Below are positions 9,018 through 28,997 of a stretch of DNA of 37,684 nt, piece by piece. The stretch lies in assembly GCA_025057935.1 (NCBI GenBank), contig JANWUW010000028.1:1-37684 (forward strand), read 5' to 3'. The DNA comes from Thermoflexales bacterium. GTDB taxonomy: Bacteria; Chloroflexota; Anaerolineae; J036; Brachytrichaceae. How positions within the stretch are numbered: position 1 is the stretch's first letter; each line of letters opens with the position of its first letter. A model generated the notes under the pieces. It worked only from the letters and a program-made list of their open reading frames with translations. It made no database searches and was not told the DNA's origin. The position numbers were made by a program, and so were the translations under genes.

Positions 9018-10373
9018 ATGCCGAACATCATCGTCCCGCGCCCCATGAGCGGCTTCCCCGAATTGTTGCCCGCTGAGCAGATCGTCTTTAACCGCTGCCT
9101 TGAGATCGTGCGGCGCACTTTCGAGTTGTTCGGCTTTGCGCCGATCGAAACGCCAGCGGTGGAGCGCAAAGAGGTGCTCACCTCGAAGGGGGGCAACGAA
9201 AAAGAGATCTACGCGCTCGCGCGCCTTGCCGCAGCACCAGGCGAAGATGCAAGCACCGACTATGCTTTGCACTTTGACCTTACAGTGCCGTTGGCGCGCT
9301 ACGTGGCGCAACACAAAGACAAGCTCGTCTTCCCCTTCCGCCGTTACCAGATTCAGAAGGTGTGGCGCGGTGAACGACCACAAGCTGGGCGCTATCGCGA
9401 GCTTTACCAGTGCGACATTGACGTGATCGGGCGCGGCTCGCTGAGCTTGCTCGCCGACGCGGAGATGCCGCTGGTGATCTACCACACCTTCACGCAAATG
9501 AACATCGGTCCCTTCGTCGTGCGTGTGAGCAACCGGCGCGTGCTCCAAGGATGGCTGGAGTCTTTCGACCTGCCGCCCGAGCGTATCAGCGCAGCGCTGC
9601 ATGCAGTGGACGATCTCGAGAAGGTCGGCGCCGAGGCTGTGCGCGCATCATTGCTGCAGAAAGCAGGGCTGAGCGAAACACAGGCGGACCAACTGCTGCG
9701 CTTCATCGCTGAGTCCGACCGCTTGCCGACCGACGCACTGCTGCAGCATCTCCGCGCGTGCGAGGGCAATGCCACGTTCCGCCAGGGCGTGGAAGAGCTC
9801 GAGACTGTGGTGCAGCACATGCGCGCGCTAGGCATGCCCGAGACAGCGTTCAAAGTAGATCTCAGCATTGTGCGCGGGCTGGACTACTACACGGGCACAG
9901 TGTACGAGACGCGCCTGATCGATCATCCCAACTTGGGCAGCGTTTGCTCTGGTGGGCGTTACGACGACCTCGCAGGCTATTTCACCACCGAGAAGTTGCC
10001 CGGCGTGGGGATTTCGATCGGCCTAAGTCGTTTGGTGTTGCGCTTGCTTGAGGCGGGCGTGCTCAAGCCGGGCGCGGCGACACCAACCCAGGTGTTAGTC
10101 ACCACGCTCGACCCGCAGCAGCTCCGCGAGTACTTGGCGATTGCGGCTGATCTGCGCGCGCAAGGCATCCCCACCGAGGTGTACCTCGAGCGCGCGCGCA
10201 TTGGCGACCAACTGCGCTACGCGAGCCGCAAGGGCATTCGCTATGCTGTGATCGCCGGCGAGACGGAATTCAGCGACGGCACGGTCAAGGTGAAGGATCT
10301 CGCACGAGGGGAAGAAGAGGTGTTCTTCCGAGAAGAACTCGCCGAGCGCATGGTAGAACGATTGCTGCCATGA
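9018..10373 (+). CDS. hisS: Histidyl-tRNA synthetase
   Basis: Class II aminoacyl-tRNA synthetase charging tRNA-His (451 aa, slightly longer than the usual 420-430). Motif 2 is read in RRYQIQKVWRGERPQAGRYR, followed by ELYQCDIDVIG. The histidine-binding motif LDYYTGTVYE starts at residue 288, then GGRYDD (312-317) and motif 3 (GVGISIGLSRL). The C-terminal 95 residues form the anticodon-binding domain. The stop overlaps the NAD kinase start by 4 bases. Confidence 0.95.
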   Translation: MPNIIVPRPMSGFPELLPAEQIVFNRCLEIVRRTFELFGFAPIETPAVERKEVLTSKGGNEKEIYALARLAAAPGEDASTDYALHFDLTVPLARYVAQHKDKLVFPFRRYQIQKVWRGERPQAGRYRELYQCDIDVIGRGSLSLLADAEMPLVIYHTFTQMNIGPFVVRVSNRRVLQGWLESFDLPPERISAALHAVDDLEKVGAEAVRASLLQKAGLSETQADQLLRFIAESDRLPTDALLQHLRACEGNATFRQGVEELETVVQHMRALGMPETAFKVDLSIVRGLDYYTGTVYETRLIDHPNLGSVCSGGRYDDLAGYFTTEKLPGVGISIGLSRLVLRLLEAGVLKPGAATPTQVLVTTLDPQQLREYLAIAADLRAQGIPTEVYLERARIGDQLRYASRKGIRYAVIAGETEFSDGTVKVKDLARGEEEVFFREELAERMVERLLP

Positions 10374-23606: not shown

Positions 23607-23624
23607 TTGTCGGCTAGTTGACAA
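23607..23624. promoter_or_regulatory. Inverted repeat over the puf -35 box, possible operator
   Basis: TTGTC (23607-23611) and GACAA (23620-23624) form a perfect 5-base inverted repeat with an 8-base centre. The right arm overlaps the -35 hexamer, and the site is flanked by two copies of CTTGCC. The TGT-N10-ACA core recalls, but does not match, the TGT-N12-ACA site of the purple-bacterial repressor PpsR/CrtJ. It is a plausible repressor site for the photosynthesis operon. Confidence 0.4.
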
Positions 23625-23645
23625 CTTGCCAAAGCCGTGAATAAT
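23618..23645 (+). promoter_or_regulatory. Promoter of the puf operon
   Basis: A consensus TTGACA (23618-23623) is followed after 16 bases by AATAAT (23640-23645). Transcription should begin near 23652, giving a leader of about 70 bases with a small hairpin (GCTCAG/CTGAGC) before the strong pufB ribosome-binding site. The upstream part, 23459-23606, contains no gene I can support. Confidence 0.75.
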
Positions 23646-23723: not shown

Positions 23724-23891
23724 ATGAACGACAAGGTCCCGGAGCGCTGGCGCCCCATCTTCACCAACGAAGAGTGGATCCAGCACCAACTCGTGGTGGC
23801 AGCCCTGTGGATGTTCAACATCCTAGCGGGCATCGTCCACATCATCCTCTTCCTGTACAAGCCCTGGATTGACCTGACCCCAGGTCGGTGA
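23724..23891 (+). CDS. pufB: Light-harvesting antenna polypeptide, beta subunit
   Basis: 55-aa membrane peptide with one helix. H39 (in AGIVHIILFLYKPW) is the usual bacteriochlorophyll ligand of beta polypeptides, followed by the KPW variant of the conserved RPW end. H21, at the membrane entrance (EWIQHQL), could bind a second, monomeric pigment of B800 type, as in Roseiflexus antennae. AAAGGAGGTGA lies before the ATG. It is the first gene of the operon, 18 bases ahead of pufA. Confidence 0.93.
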   Translation: MNDKVPERWRPIFTNEEWIQHQLVVAALWMFNILAGIVHIILFLYKPWIDLTPGR

Positions 23892-23909: not shown

Positions 23910-24038
23910 ATGCGAGATCCAAAGTTCATTGACTTCAAGACAGCGCTCGCGCTGTATGTCACCTCGATGGTGTTGACAGCGCTGCTGCTGCACTTCGTGG
24001 TCTACAGCTCGAGCTGGAACGACTTCTGGCTCAAGTGA
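23910..24038 (+). CDS. pufA: Light-harvesting antenna polypeptide, alpha subunit
   Basis: 42-aa membrane peptide with a single helix. H28 (in TALLLHFVVY) is the bacteriochlorophyll ligand, and the C-terminal SSSWNDFW aromatic stretch is typical of alpha polypeptides near the pigment ring. Its ribosome-binding site AAAGGAGGT (23894-23902) starts just after the pufB stop. It pairs with PufB in the ring around the reaction centre. A 269-base structured segment follows before pufL. Confidence 0.93.
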   Translation: MRDPKFIDFKTALALYVTSMVLTALLLHFVVYSSSWNDFWLK

Positions 24039-24307
24039 GGCGTTAAGTCTTCATCCCGAAGCCGGCGAGGTGCATCCCGAAGCGAAAATGCTCCGAAGAG
24101 CAGATAGGCGGTCGCCTAGGAGTGCAAGTCGCCGGCTTCTTAATCAAGAGGCGACGTGAGTGCCGCTTCGCTCTGGCGCAAGCACCTCGGAGACGCGAAA
24201 ACAGAAATCATCTCCAGTTATCCATGTGGCGTGGTCGAAGGGGTATATGCGGTGCGAGGAGGAAGTGGAGCACGTCGCCCCGAGCTGAAAGGTGAGGTGA
24301 AAGACGC
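24039..24307 (+). ncRNA. Structured RNA segment between pufA and pufL
   Basis: This gap can fold into two branched domains. Domain 1 is closed by an 11-base perfect stem (24058-24068 with 24129-24139) extended by TGCA/TGCA. It encloses two hairpins: TGCTC-CGAA-GAGCA (24089-24102) and TAGGC-GGTC-GCCTA (24105-24118). CATCCCGAAGC is directly repeated at 24052 and 24073. Domain 2 is closed by GGCGACGTG/CACGTCGCC (24150-24158, 24271-24279) and holds at least one inner hairpin (GGAGA/TCTCC, 24189-24215). There is no T-run, so it is not a simple terminator. In purple bacteria, stem-loops at this place stabilise the antenna mRNA; the same role, or ligand sensing, is possible here. It does not match a riboswitch class I know. 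Confidence 0.55.
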
Positions 24308-25171
24308 ATGCTGTCGTTTGAAGCGAAGTATCGCCGCGAAGCCTTAGAAGTGCCGCCTATCCCGTGGTTGGGGATGGGCATCTTCCGCTTCTGGATTGGT
24401 CGCTTCTACGTGGGCTTCTGGGGATTGGTGGCGCTCTTCTTCGGCTTGATCGGCTCGGCGGTGTGGTTCTGGCAGGTGCTCTTTGTGCACCCGCTGGACC
24501 CGCGCAACCCACTGCTCAACTTCATTCGAGGTCAGATCAAGCCGCCACCACCAGAGATCGGTCTATCCATCCCTCTTGACGGTGAGAAGGGGCTGTGGTG
24601 GATCGTGGTGGTCTTCTGCGCGACGGTGACCTTCTTCGCGTGGATGATGCGCCAAGCCGAGATCGCGCGCATGCTCAAGATGGGCTATCAGGTGCCGATT
24701 GCCTACGGCGCAGTCTTCTCTTCGTGGGTGACGATCCAGATTCTGCGCCCAGTGCTGCTCGGTCACTGGTCAGAAGGATTCCCGTTGGGCGTGATCGCAC
24801 ACTTGGACTGGCTCTCGGCGTTCGGTTACCGCTACTACAACTTCTTCTTCAACCCCTTCCACGCGCTTGGCATCACGTTCCTGTTCGGGAGCGCGTTTGT
24901 GCTCTCACTGCACGGCGCGACGATCCTCAGCGCTTCGGGCAAGAAAGCGGAAGGCGTGACTGAGGAGAACGTCAACCAGTTCTACTGGGATTTCCTTGGT
25001 TACTCCATCGGCGAGGTTGGCATCCACCGCTTGGCGTTGTGGACCGCAGTGCTCTCCGTGCTTGTAAGCAACCTGTGCTTCGTGCTCTCTGGGACGGTGG
25101 TGCAGGACTGGAACGCGTTCTGGGACTTCTGGAACAAGTTGCCATTCTGGAGCGGGTTTGGCTTTAACTGA
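24308..25171 (+). CDS. pufL: Photosynthetic reaction centre L subunit
   Basis: 287-aa, five-helix subunit of the type-II reaction centre. Aligned by eye with Rhodobacter L, all four cofactor histidines are present: H165 (accessory bacteriochlorophyll, in VIAHLDWLS), H185 (special pair, in NPFHALGITF), H202 and H240 (non-haem metal, in SLHGATILSA and VGIHRLAL). The position of Phe L181 remains Phe (F193). GGTGAGGTGA precedes the ATG. The stop is 15 bases before pufM. L and M are separate genes here, unlike the fused pufLM of Roseiflexus. Confidence 0.96.
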   Translation: MLSFEAKYRREALEVPPIPWLGMGIFRFWIGRFYVGFWGLVALFFGLIGSAVWFWQVLFVHPLDPRNPLLNFIRGQIKPPPPEIGLSIPLDGEKGLWWIVVVFCATVTFFAWMMRQAEIARMLKMGYQVPIAYGAVFSSWVTIQILRPVLLGHWSEGFPLGVIAHLDWLSAFGYRYYNFFFNPFHALGITFLFGSAFVLSLHGATILSASGKKAEGVTEENVNQFYWDFLGYSIGEVGIHRLALWTAVLSVLVSNLCFVLSGTVVQDWNAFWDFWNKLPFWSGFGFN

Positions 25172-25186: not shown

Positions 25187-26074
25187 ATGACAACCGAAGT
25201 CTATCGCGAGTCCTTCGAGCGACGCACGAAGACCGTGCGTTACCTACGATTTCTAGAAGGGCTGGCTGACACTCAGGTAGGACCAATCTTCCTCGGCATG
25301 TGGGGCACAGTGGCGCTCTTCTCCTACCTGCTGAGTGCTTTTATCACGGCGATTGGGTTCGGTGAGCAGGTGGGTTGGAACCCAATTCGACTTGTGCGCG
25401 AATTGCCGGTGCTCACGCTCTACCCGCCGCCACCATCCTACGGTTTGCAGCTTGCTCCGCTGCAAGAGGGCGGTTATTGGCAGATCGCCACATTCTTCCT
25501 CACCGTGTCGCTGATCGCGTGGACCTTCCGCGCGTGGACGCGCGCAGTGGCGAACGGCTTGCGCCCCACGGTGGCGATCGCCTTCACCGCAGCGCTCTTC
25601 CTCTACGCTGCGATCTACATCATTCATCCCATCTCGATGAACTCGTGGAACGAGGCGCCGGGACACGGGTTGGCTGCAATCTTGCTCTGGACCAACCACT
25701 TCAGCGTGAAGTACGGCAACTTCTACTACAACCCGTTCCACATGGTCTCCATCTTCGGGCTGCTGGGCAGCGCGGTGATCTTGGCGATGCATGGCGCGAC
25801 CATCCTCGCGACGCTCGCCTACAACGCGCACAAGGAGATCGACGAGATCGAGAAGAGCGATGAGGGTACGCATCGCGCCCAGCTCTTTTGGCGCTGGGTG
25901 ATGGGCTTCAACGCCACGGCGCACTCGATCCATGTGTGGGCGTTGGGCTTTGCGTCGCTCACCGCGGTGGCAGGTGCCATCGGCGTGATTGCCACAGGCT
26001 GGCTCGAGCCGAACTGGTATCTATGGGGGTGCCGCGCAGGCATCGCGCCTGGCATCCAAGCAGCTTGCCCATGA
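25187..26074 (+). CDS. pufM: Photosynthetic reaction centre M subunit
   Basis: 295-aa partner of PufL. H185 is the special-pair ligand, H202 and H249 bind the metal, and E217 matches the metal-ligating Glu M234 of Rhodobacter. The accessory-pigment histidine (M182) is replaced by I165 (AAILLWTN where purple bacteria have SHLDWTN), so a bacteriopheophytin should sit there, as in Chloroflexus and Roseiflexus centres. Tyr M210, which tunes primary charge separation, is L193. AAGGAGGTG precedes the ATG. pufC follows after 21 bases. Confidence 0.96.
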   Translation: MTTEVYRESFERRTKTVRYLRFLEGLADTQVGPIFLGMWGTVALFSYLLSAFITAIGFGEQVGWNPIRLVRELPVLTLYPPPPSYGLQLAPLQEGGYWQIATFFLTVSLIAWTFRAWTRAVANGLRPTVAIAFTAALFLYAAIYIIHPISMNSWNEAPGHGLAAILLWTNHFSVKYGNFYYNPFHMVSIFGLLGSAVILAMHGATILATLAYNAHKEIDEIEKSDEGTHRAQLFWRWVMGFNATAHSIHVWALGFASLTAVAGAIGVIATGWLEPNWYLWGCRAGIAPGIQAACP

Positions 26075-26095: not shown

Positions 26096-27313
26096 ATGAC
26101 CGTCCACGAAGGAGCTCCCCCAGGGGCTGTCGCGAAGTACGACGAGCGCCAACGCGAGATTTTGCGCGGCGAGCTAGTGGGGCTGGTGGCGTTCACCATC
26201 TTGGCGCTGGGTGGCGTGATTGCGCTCTCGATGGCATTCGCCGGCGTGCGCGAGGTCAGCGGCTACCGCGCTGAGCATACTTACAACTACGCTGGCGTGC
26301 AGCAGGTGAACTTCCTGCAGTACATGGAGCGCATTGGACGCCCAGTCGCTCAGCCAAGCGCAGAGGCGCTTCAGGCTTACTCGGAGTGGGTTGCCAAGAA
26401 TCCGCGCACCGTGAATGTGCAGGTGCTTAACAAATACCTAGGCGACAAATACAACGACACTAACAACGTCTTCGCCTACATGAGCGCCTACTTCACGCCG
26501 GGCGTGGGTCAGAGCTGCGAATACTGCCACAACCTCCAGAATTTCGCCGCATACGACAAGCCGCAGAAAACAGTGGCAAAGGCGATGCTGATCATGCAGT
26601 TTGAGCTGCAGGCGAAGTGGATTGAGAACATTCCGCGACCTGAGGGTCAGCCCCTGTACCAGATCAAGTGCTACACCTGCCACTACGGTCAGGCGAAGTT
26701 CTGGAATCAGGACCTCAAAGCGAGCAACCCAGAGCTATTCGGCGTTGCTGGCGGCGGCAACCCAACGCCGCACGACATGAAGAACAACGGCATCACGCTG
26801 AACGGCAAAGTGCCAAGCAGCTACGAAGTGGTGGACGACCGCTATCTAGCCACACGCCCGGACGCCGAGGGCAACTACAACTTCTACCAAGTCACAGCCA
26901 GCAAGGACACGCCACCTGGGCTGGTGGACACCTACCGCAACCAGTATGCCATGTATCACCAGAACACCGCGCTGGGTGTGGGGTGCGACTTCTGCCACTA
27001 CGGTGGTTACTTCAAGAGCTATGTGACTGCCGATGGCGTGTTCAAGTGGCCCAAGGCGCAGGCGCGGCACATGCAAGCCATGATGCTGGACATCGCGTTG
27101 AACTGGTTCCCGCAAATGCCCAACGTCAACGACGTGACGCAGAACCAGAATTACTACGCGCAGCCCAACTGCTACATGTGCCACCGTGGCTATGTGGTGC
27201 CACCAGGCGCCGCAGAGTTCCCAGAGAAACCTGTCAAAGTGGCTGATCCTCAAATCAAGCCGCTAGTTGACCTACCGCTGCCGAAGCCGATCTTGCCGAC
27301 CAGCAGCAAGTGA
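26096..27313 (+). CDS. pufC: Reaction-centre-bound tetrahaem cytochrome c subunit
   Basis: 405-aa electron donor to the oxidised special pair. An uncleaved N-terminal helix (about residues 22-48) anchors it, and the rest faces the periplasm. Four CxxCH haem sites are seen: C141EYCH, C192YTCH, C297DFCH and C359YMCH, in the two-pair spacing normal for PufC. No lipobox cysteine is present, so anchoring is by the helix, as described for Roseiflexus. GGGAGGTGAAG lies before the ATG. A hairpin follows the stop. Confidence 0.95.
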   Translation: MTVHEGAPPGAVAKYDERQREILRGELVGLVAFTILALGGVIALSMAFAGVREVSGYRAEHTYNYAGVQQVNFLQYMERIGRPVAQPSAEALQAYSEWVAKNPRTVNVQVLNKYLGDKYNDTNNVFAYMSAYFTPGVGQSCEYCHNLQNFAAYDKPQKTVAKAMLIMQFELQAKWIENIPRPEGQPLYQIKCYTCHYGQAKFWNQDLKASNPELFGVAGGGNPTPHDMKNNGITLNGKVPSSYEVVDDRYLATRPDAEGNYNFYQVTASKDTPPGLVDTYRNQYAMYHQNTALGVGCDFCHYGGYFKSYVTADGVFKWPKAQARHMQAMMLDIALNWFPQMPNVNDVTQNQNYYAQPNCYMCHRGYVVPPGAAEFPEKPVKVADPQIKPLVDLPLPKPILPTSSK

Positions 27314-27320
27314 CCTGATG

Positions 27321-27360
27321 TAGGACGCAGCGCTCGCCGCTCAGGTGGCGCTGCGTCCTA
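27321..27360 (+). other. 13-bp hairpin between pufC and the transporter gene
   Basis: TAGGACGCAGCGC (27321-27333) pairs perfectly with 27348-27360 around a 14-base loop. AAAATAAG rather than a T-run follows on the plus strand, so it probably does not terminate efficiently. It may instead protect the 3' end of a puf message or attenuate the downstream gene, whose ATG is only 13 bases beyond and lacks a ribosome-binding site. Confidence 0.6.
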
Positions 27361-27373
27361 AAATAAGCGCGTC

Positions 27374-28702
27374 ATGTTTCTGAACAAGCGCCTGCTCCGT
27401 TTGAGCCTCTTCCAGCTCGGCTTAGGCTTCAGCGTGGTGGTCTTCAACGGCGCGCTCAATCGTGTCTTCATCGCTGAGGAGCAGATCCCCGCCGGCATGG
27501 TGGGCTGGCTGTTGAGCCTTGGGCTGTTCGTAGCGCCGATTCGTGCGCTGATGGGCTTCATGTCCGACCGCGAAAAGCGCACCTTCGGCTACCGCCGCTT
27601 CCCCTACGCTTGGTTTGGGACGGTGTTTGTGTTTCTCGCGCTTTCCTCAGCACCGTTCTCTTTGCTGCTGCTGAGCAAAGCGTCCGAGCTGAACAGCCAT
27701 GTGCCGTTCCCCGTCGGCTTCGGCATGTCCACGTTTATCTTCCTGCTGTATGCCGTGGGCTTGCACATAGGGCAGACGGGTTACCTAGCGATGGTCACCG
27801 ATCTCACACCACAGCGCGAGCGCAGCCGCGCCATGGCGTATCTGTGGGTGACCTTCATCATCGGCCAAATCATCAGCGCCTTCATCGTGAGCGCGTGGCT
27901 CGAGGATTACCACCCCTCCAAGCTGGTTCAAGTGATGCAAACGGGGGCAGTGGTGTTCTTCGTGCTAGCGGTGGCAGCGATCTGGGGACAGGAGAAACCA
28001 ATCGAGCTGGAGGAAGATCTCGATGATTTCTCCAGTAAGGTTTGGGCACTCTTTGAGGATCGCCGCATGCGGTGGTTCTTTGCGACGCTATTCATCGGCA
28101 CGCTGGGGCTAACTGCGCAAGACGTTCTGCTCGAGCCATACGGTGGGCAGGTGCTGGGCATGGCGGTGAGCGAAACGGCGCGCCTCACTGCGGCGTGGGG
28201 GATCGGGATGTTGATTGCCATGCTGATCGCATGGCGCGTGATCCCACGCTTAGAGTCGCCCTTGCCTGTGGCGCTTGCGGCTGGCTTGATTGGCATGGCA
28301 GGTTTTGGGTTGATCAGCAGCGCCAGCCTCTCGAAGCAGGTGCTGCCGTTCGTGCTGGGCGCCTCGATCATCGGCGTTGCTAGCGGCTTGTTCTTGATCT
28401 CGACGCTGGCTTGGGTGGTGAGCCTTGCAGACGTGAAGACAGCAGGGCTTTACGTGGGCATGTGGGGACTGGTTCAGACTACTGCAGCAGGCTTGGGCGC
28501 TCTCGGAGGGAGCAACCTGCGCGACCTCGTCATCCGCACCACGGGCAACGTTGCCCAGAGCTACACCACCGTATACGTCGTCGAGATGGCGCTGCTAGCA
28601 GTTGCGCTGATCTTGTTCGCCTTCATGCCGCGCGAGTTACTCGCTGTGCGCACCAAGGGACGCTCGGCATTTGCCGGCTTAACGGAGATTCCAGGTAGTT
28701 GA
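27374..28702 (+). CDS. PucC/LhaA-type (BCD family) major facilitator protein
   Basis: 442-aa membrane protein with about twelve helices, of the bacteriochlorophyll-delivery (BCD) branch of the major facilitator superfamily. Members assist assembly of light-harvesting complexes, possibly by delivering pigment. Recognisable parts are the opening RLSLFQLGLGFSVVVFNGALNRV, here abbreviated as its key residues FQLGLG and NGALNRV, then RALMGFMSDR, the FGYRRFPY loop and TPQRERSRAMAY. Location after pufC supports a role in antenna and core assembly. No ribosome-binding site is visible. The start agrees with the family beginning. Confidence 0.9.
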   Translation: MFLNKRLLRLSLFQLGLGFSVVVFNGALNRVFIAEEQIPAGMVGWLLSLGLFVAPIRALMGFMSDREKRTFGYRRFPYAWFGTVFVFLALSSAPFSLLLLSKASELNSHVPFPVGFGMSTFIFLLYAVGLHIGQTGYLAMVTDLTPQRERSRAMAYLWVTFIIGQIISAFIVSAWLEDYHPSKLVQVMQTGAVVFFVLAVAAIWGQEKPIELEEDLDDFSSKVWALFEDRRMRWFFATLFIGTLGLTAQDVLLEPYGGQVLGMAVSETARLTAAWGIGMLIAMLIAWRVIPRLESPLPVALAAGLIGMAGFGLISSASLSKQVLPFVLGASIIGVASGLFLISTLAWVVSLADVKTAGLYVGMWGLVQTTAAGLGALGGSNLRDLVIRTTGNVAQSYTTVYVVEMALLAVALILFAFMPRELLAVRTKGRSAFAGLTEIPGS

Positions 28703-28731
28703 CTCGCTCGTAAGAAGAGAGGTGAAGTGAC

Positions 28732-28899
28732 ATGCCGCTCATCCCAAGCATGGAATCCTTGCTGTGCATCGTGCTGCTGTTGATGGGGTCTGTAGGGTTG
28801 TTCGTGCTCTTCGTGTTCACGGACAACGACGCTGTAGCGCAGAGCAAACTCCCGCAGCACGCTACGGAGAAGCGCGACGAGCAAGCCTCATCAGCTTGA
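28732..28899 (+). CDS. 55-aa single-helix membrane protein, last gene of the puf operon
   Basis: An ATG at 28732, preceded by AGAGGTGAAG, opens a 55-residue protein. It has a short N-terminus (MPLIPSMES), one hydrophobic helix (about 9-30, CIVLLLMGSVGLFVLFVF) and a charged polar tail (DNDAVAQSK onward). The helix has no histidine, so it is not an antenna peptide. It lies 29 bases after the transporter gene and before the operon terminator. Size and topology resemble accessory helices of reaction-centre-antenna cores (PufX-like, or the unassigned extra helix described for Roseiflexus). That link is by position and shape only, not by sequence similarity I can demonstrate. Confidence 0.75.
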   Translation: MPLIPSMESLLCIVLLLMGSVGLFVLFVFTDNDAVAQSKLPQHATEKRDEQASSA

Positions 28900-28949: not shown

Positions 28950-28983
28950 CAGCGCCATGCGTCTACAAGGCATGGCGCTTTTT
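28950..28983 (+). terminator. Rho-independent terminator of the puf operon
   Basis: AGCGCCATGC (28950-28959) pairs perfectly with GCATGGCGCT (28969-28978) around a 9-base loop and is followed by six T. It closes the transcription unit 50 bases after the small membrane protein. Confidence 0.93.
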
Positions 28984-28997
28984 TCTTGCTGAGCAGC

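Follow-up and report, generated by a model that had tools for sequence, protein, structure and literature searches.

The last gene of the puf operon in the stretch of DNA analysed here (the window, 37,684 nucleotides from a Thermoflexales bacterium) encodes a 55-residue protein with a single membrane helix. Judging from sequence comparisons, this protein is probably the form that subunit Z, also called protein h, of the Roseiflexus castenholzii core complex takes in the Roseilinea lineage. Together with a small chain of the Chloroflexus complex (chain N), it probably represents one reaction-centre subunit that Roseilinea-type bacteria, Roseiflexus and Chloroflexus have in common and that genome annotation has missed. 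The match between sequence profiles, the synteny of Z and N, and the absence of puhA make the identification of the ORF with the Z/h subunit the best reading of our results. We put at roughly three in four the probability that the ORF encodes the Roseilinea version of Z/h and chain N, packing on the M subunit of the reaction centre (RC-M) and standing in for the membrane helix of the H subunit.

An overlooked gene at the end of the puf operon

The operon lies on the forward strand of the window. It is preceded by a promoter-like element, TTGACA-16-AATAAT (23618-23645), identified by consensus match only (11 of 12 positions), and opens with the genes of a beta-type (LHβ, 23724-23891) and an alpha-type (LHα, 23910-24038) antenna polypeptide, both recognised by weak matches to PF00556 and by synteny. 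Next come pufL (24308-25171; PF00124, E = 1.2e-74), whose product RC-L has 8iug_L as its top match in the PDB and is not fused to RC-M; pufM (25187-26074; PF00124, E = 2.1e-77), encoding RC-M, the proposed partner of the 55-residue helix; and pufC (26096-27313; PF02276, E = 2.8e-17), encoding a tetraheme cytochrome with an N-terminal membrane helix. They are followed by the gene of a PucC/LhaA-like assembly factor (pucC, 27374-28702; PF03209, E = 2.9e-96), which by synteny is found directly upstream of the ORF in all homologous loci. The ORF itself (28732-28899, from ATG to TGA) starts after a gap of 29 bases, in which the ribosome-binding site AGGTGA is found (28720-28725). An intrinsic-terminator-like hairpin followed by a T run closes the operon (28951-28985; 10-pair stem, -20.7 kcal/mol, z = -3.2); it was missed by the pattern scan because its loop is longer than 8 bases. 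The region between the antenna genes and pufL also contains a stable hairpin (24058-24139; -45.8 kcal/mol, z = -4.0 for 24039-24150), placed similarly to the Rhodobacter puf hairpin that sets the ratio of antenna to reaction centre.

The protein has a single hydrophobic stretch, at about residues 10 to 29 (codons at 28759-28818), which is free of histidine. AlphaFold2 predicted one main helix at residues 6 to 37, with a mean pLDDT of 95-97 over residues 11 to 30, and an extra, low-confidence helix within the C-terminal tail. There is no lysine or arginine ahead of the membrane helix and there are three past it; all 15 homologues likewise have none ahead of the helix and one to five past it. 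This distribution is as expected for an N-out/C-in topology, i.e., a predicted cytoplasmic, charged C-terminus behind a single membrane helix, which is a prediction and not a measurement. The first-pass annotation had placed a short ORF with a ribosome-binding site between the PucC-like gene and the operon terminator, and had described its product as one hydrophobic helix with no histidine in the membrane and a charged tail. Its coordinates were exact, AGGTGA and the hairpin are both present, and the description agrees with the hydrophobicity, the lysine and arginine counts and the AlphaFold2 helix.

Homologues of the ORF were found in 14 other genomes of the family (E-values from 1e-28 to 2e-7), which are named in their records as Candidatus Roseilinea and other Thermoflexales. 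In all 15 genomes the ORF comes last in the order LHβ-LHα-pufL-pufM-pufC-pucC, always directly after pucC, and a purine-rich ribosome-binding site precedes it at the matching position. The ORF is present in 15 of the 16 pufC-bearing genomes of the family, and in the remaining one (G020) the contig stops 41 bases past pucC. Relatives that have no pufC gave no strong match to it. Pairwise dN/dS was about 0.01-0.13 in many pairs, showing that the ORF is under strong purifying selection. The first-pass annotation would have abandoned the ORF had it not been conserved in related puf operons, or had synonymous and nonsynonymous changes accumulated at equal rates; its conservation after pucC in 15 genomes and the low dN/dS values are the opposite of both. 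That it might be spurious or decaying is suggested by its shortness and by the lack of a Pfam or NCBIfam family covering the protein, but the dN/dS values and the conservation of start, ribosome-binding site and motif in 15 genomes refute this explanation, to which we give practically no weight. The ORF is a genuine, overlooked gene. When the window was scanned for small membrane ORFs that are conserved in related puf loci and do not overlap larger genes, the scan retrieved this ORF and the two antenna polypeptides, and no others. Weak phylum-wide matches outside the family (E above 0.001) were set aside because they were isolated or inside larger frames.

One of 12 members of the protein family gave a weak Pfam match to FixS (E = 0.098), and the gene could in principle encode a small respiratory helper, such as FixS/CcoS of the cbb3 oxidase, that lies next to the puf genes by chance. 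However, this match is below any cut-off and concerns a single member, while the strict co-occurrence with pufC and the fixed position in the operon would not be expected of a respiratory gene. We regard a respiratory function as very improbable.

Relationship to subunit Z and chain N

A phmmer search of the PDB with the single 55-residue sequence gave no match. With an HMM of the Roseilinea family, the same database gave a sub-threshold match (E = 0.91) to a small chain without a name, 8ydm_N, which is identical over 64 residues to a protein in the genome of Chloroflexus aurantiacus; the N gene was found in all 17 phototrophic Chloroflexaceae searched. In Roseiflexaceae, a small conserved ORF about 10 kb from puf corresponds to 8hju_Z, the core subunit Z (protein h) of R. 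castenholzii. Comparison of profiles with hhalign matched the Roseilinea family to the Roseiflexaceae Z family with a probability of 86-88 (E = 3e-6 to 5e-6) and to the Chloroflexaceae N family with a probability of 76-85 (E = 7e-6 to 2e-5). Column shuffles, which keep the helix composition, equalled the score with Z in none of 300 cases and the score with N in 3 of 300, and none of 29 natural membrane-helix profiles from the same loci scored as well. Among these natural decoys, the last helix of the PucC-like protein came closest (probability of 38), probably by chance.

When 31 proteins were aligned jointly, no gap fell within the helix, and one cysteine and one threonine were invariant. A single register holds across the Roseilinea, Z and N families, in which the cysteine marks the helix start and is followed, 18 residues on, by Thr-[Asp/Asn]; the spacing from Cys12 to Thr30-Asp31 in the 55-residue protein is common to 8hju_Z and 8ydm_N. 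The relationship to 8hju_Z is visible at the level of profiles and not at that of single sequences, e.g., Z of the Roseiflexus RS-1-type genome scored 5.6 bits against the Roseilinea HMM, which is within the background. The Z and N families themselves aligned weakly (probability of 32); the link therefore depends on profiles that are short (about 30-50 columns) and of limited diversity.

The gene neighbourhood of Z and N provides a check that is independent of sequence similarity. The order in Roseiflexaceae is bchX, a DUF169-like gene, Z, bchY and bchZ, and in Chloroflexaceae the N gene comes after the DUF169-like gene or bchX and before bchI, where the neighbours were named from translated sequences without a family search. 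The genes of Z in Roseiflexaceae and of N in Chloroflexaceae lie at 9259-9450 of locus L110, 11847-11993 of L112, 9914-10066 of L116, and about 1450-1660 of L124-L140. This common bchX/DUF169 neighbourhood indicates that 8hju_Z and 8ydm_N are orthologues. Hence, the Roseilinea family, which matches both, bridges two proteins that were already linked by synteny.

The Roseilinea gene ends the puf operon and is not beside bchX and the DUF169-like gene, a position that we treated as a secondary and not a defining feature of the subunit. We searched the bchX regions of five genomes of the Roseilinea family for a Z-like ORF and found none. The placement in the puf operon, when Z and N are in the bch cluster, counts against the identification with Z/h. 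The position of the Z/N gene relative to bchX and the DUF169-like gene already varies between Roseiflexaceae and Chloroflexaceae, and a Roseilinea bchX cluster lacking the ORF is consistent with the gene having moved between bch cluster and puf operon, in either direction. The window's own genome bin (G000) contains two copies of bchX, at 6251-7417 of L191 (contig C37) and at 2069-3235 of L192 (contig C67). The overlapping stretches of these contigs are 77% identical, and the second copy stems either from a duplication of the cluster or from a contig that belongs to another organism.

A different role is conceivable given the structure of the transcript. A strong hairpin separates pufC from pucC (27321-27360, forward strand; -37.7 kcal/mol, z = -5.9), and strong counterparts (-27 to -47) of differing sequence occupy the equivalent position in 10 out of 10 related loci (L099-L104, L106-L109). 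This suggests a transcript-processing or attenuation element that sets pucC and the 55-residue gene apart from the reaction-centre genes. With such a hairpin in the transcript, expression of the ORF at a 1:1 ratio with the reaction centre is not guaranteed, and it could be below the level of the reaction centre. The protein might then be a helper in assembly or pigment delivery that works with the adjacent PucC/LhaA-like protein (cf. PufQ or an LhaA partner), and not a stoichiometric core subunit. Its gene is always directly downstream of pucC, and the pair lies past the strong hairpin in all loci examined, which could set its expression apart. Yet the profiles match proteins that are built into solved cores, 8hju_Z and 8ydm_N, and in Chloroflexaceae and Roseiflexaceae the related gene is found beside bch genes and not beside a PucC gene. 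We therefore consider a helper of this kind unlikely, and retain the Z/h subunit as the preferred identity of the protein.

A candidate stand-in for the H subunit

To our knowledge, the reaction centres of Chloroflexota are described as having no H subunit. We found no PuhA/PRCH protein in 20 Chloroflexota genomes, that of the window included; the ORF, co-occurring with pufC, is thus a gene of Chloroflexota that have a type-II reaction centre and no puhA. Homology between the ORF and PuhA itself, proposed from the resemblance of 'ED[KR]REGYPL' to 'TDRNAVEES', was rejected, since the hhalign probability against the profile of PRCH N-termini was below 1. Shuffled PRCH profiles often equalled or beat the real one against the Roseilinea family, in which the Pfam PRCH profile (PF03967) had no match. 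The PRCH queries were N-terminal sequences; those of R. sphaeroides and T. tepidum are identical to PDB chains, and the others come from PDB alignments.

The assignment of subunit Z (protein h), made in 2023, puts it with RC-M on one side and the antenna on the other, at or close to the position of the H-subunit helix (PMC10432797, PMC10516601). The two studies disagree on whether it coincides with that helix. One of them places protein h at the exact position of the H helix in R. castenholzii (PMC10432797), whereas the other reports a mismatch on superposition, with the helix sitting against RC-M and LHα11 and stabilising the contact between reaction centre and antenna (PMC10516601). The possible existence of a protein-h-like helix in other Chloroflexota has been raised before (PMC10432797), which anticipates part of our conclusion on the Roseilinea ORF. 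In the arrangement that we infer, which includes the stoichiometry of the protein in the complex, the 55-residue protein would cross the membrane once, with its N-terminus outside and its charged C-terminus in the cytoplasm. Its helix would pack against RC-M in the place of Z, on the face that is covered in purple bacteria by the membrane helix of the H subunit. There it may help to assemble and stabilise L/M and the contact with the antenna, and would thus have an H-like role where puhA is absent.

The first-pass annotation had instead proposed a new core subunit affecting ring closure or quinone exchange, perhaps akin to the helix reported as unassigned in the Roseiflexus core. The kinship with this formerly unassigned helix stands, through the profile match to Z. 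Its novelty does not, Z having been assigned in 2023, and the protein adds to a known but barely recognised group of core helices. As to the antenna ring, PufX is also encoded at the end of a puf operon, and a single helix lacking a pigment-binding histidine and encoded at this place might do the work of subunit X, PufX or PufW and keep the ring open for quinone exchange. No gene for subunit X was detected in Roseilinea genomes, where a gap helix might accordingly be missing. However, the profiles match the helix on the RC-M side, Z/N, and not the gap helix X (8hju_X/8iug_X), which is absent from the top 70 scores against the Roseilinea HMM. In Roseiflexus the gap is the place of subunit X and of the N-terminal helix of pufC (PMC10516601), and pufC of the window retains its N-terminal hydrophobic helix. 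The sequence evidence therefore points away from a role at the ring gap, which we hold to be quite improbable, and towards the RC-M side occupied by Z.

The two other small helices of Roseiflexus were located through their Fe-S neighbours in a Roseiflexus RS-1-type genome (G542), where the genes of subunit X (32 residues; L163, 6034-6132) and protein Y (39 residues; L169, 15241-15360), both confirmed in the PDB, lie 29 kb from each other, as they do in R. castenholzii. Neither was detected in the Roseilinea genomes, a weak negative for such short peptides, nor in Chloroflexus genomes. Of the three small helices of Roseiflexus, Z/h alone appears to be widespread.

With somewhat less assurance than for the ORF itself, we favour the broader view that the Roseilinea ORF, Roseiflexus Z and Chloroflexus N all represent a single ancient subunit. 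This subunit would stand in for H, be of an origin separate from PuhA, and occur in each of the tested phototrophic lineages of Chloroflexota that have a type-II reaction centre. If so, the reaction centre of this phylum would always have an extra subunit that is invisible to annotation, whose gene in Roseilinea is inside the puf operon. Should the same helix recur across all three of the phototrophic families tested, L, M, C and this helix would make up the minimal type-II reaction centre of Chloroflexota. Such a recurrence bears on how type-II reaction centres assemble without PuhA, and on efforts to produce the reaction centres of Chloroflexota in Rhodobacter (PMC12650329), the published account of which nowhere mentions protein h, subunit X or TMx. 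It also matters for annotation, as neither Pfam nor NCBIfam recognises these proteins. The place of the Roseilinea gene in the puf operon ties the protein to the production of the reaction centre more directly than does the separate location in Roseiflexus.

Comparison with known systems

Several known proteins resemble the Roseilinea protein to different extents. Subunit X (TMx, 32 residues) and protein Y (protein I, 39 residues) of Roseiflexus are also tiny unannotated helices of the core, with no detectable relation to it. RC-Ht of Gemmatimonas phototrophica (PDB 7o0u_H1) and the N-terminal helix of PuhA are each a single helix beside the reaction centre, as proposed for the Roseilinea protein. 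Ht corresponds to the transmembrane portion of an H subunit that is split into separate parts (PMC10214105), and it is a true PRCH-domain protein, whereas the Roseilinea family has no detectable similarity to PRCH (hhalign probability below 1).

The 'hypothetical protein chain N' of 8ydm, from Chloroflexus aurantiacus, for which we found no article in the open literature, has the register and the invariant residues of the Roseilinea protein. It differs from it by a basic C-terminal tail, TN[IV]TA[YF]ARR, and by a gene that adjoins bchI.

Subunit Z (protein h, formerly TM1) of R. castenholzii is WP_041331144.1, present in PDB entries 8hju, 8hjv, 8iug, 8iun, 8j5o and 8j5p. Its N-terminus is longer than that of the Roseilinea protein and its C-terminal tail is different (TDKQATSAYLRLDP vs TDRNAVEESxLPxH). 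Its gene is flanked by bchX-DUF169 and bchY-bchZ, at a distance of about 10 kb from puf, whereas the Roseilinea gene is inside the puf operon (PMC10432797). The two proteins are alike in size class (63 vs 55 residues), in their one helix with a cysteine at its start, and in the residues that follow, i.e., glycine at Cys+10, Thr-[Asp/Asn] at Cys+18 and alanine at Cys+22, and both belong to organisms without puhA.
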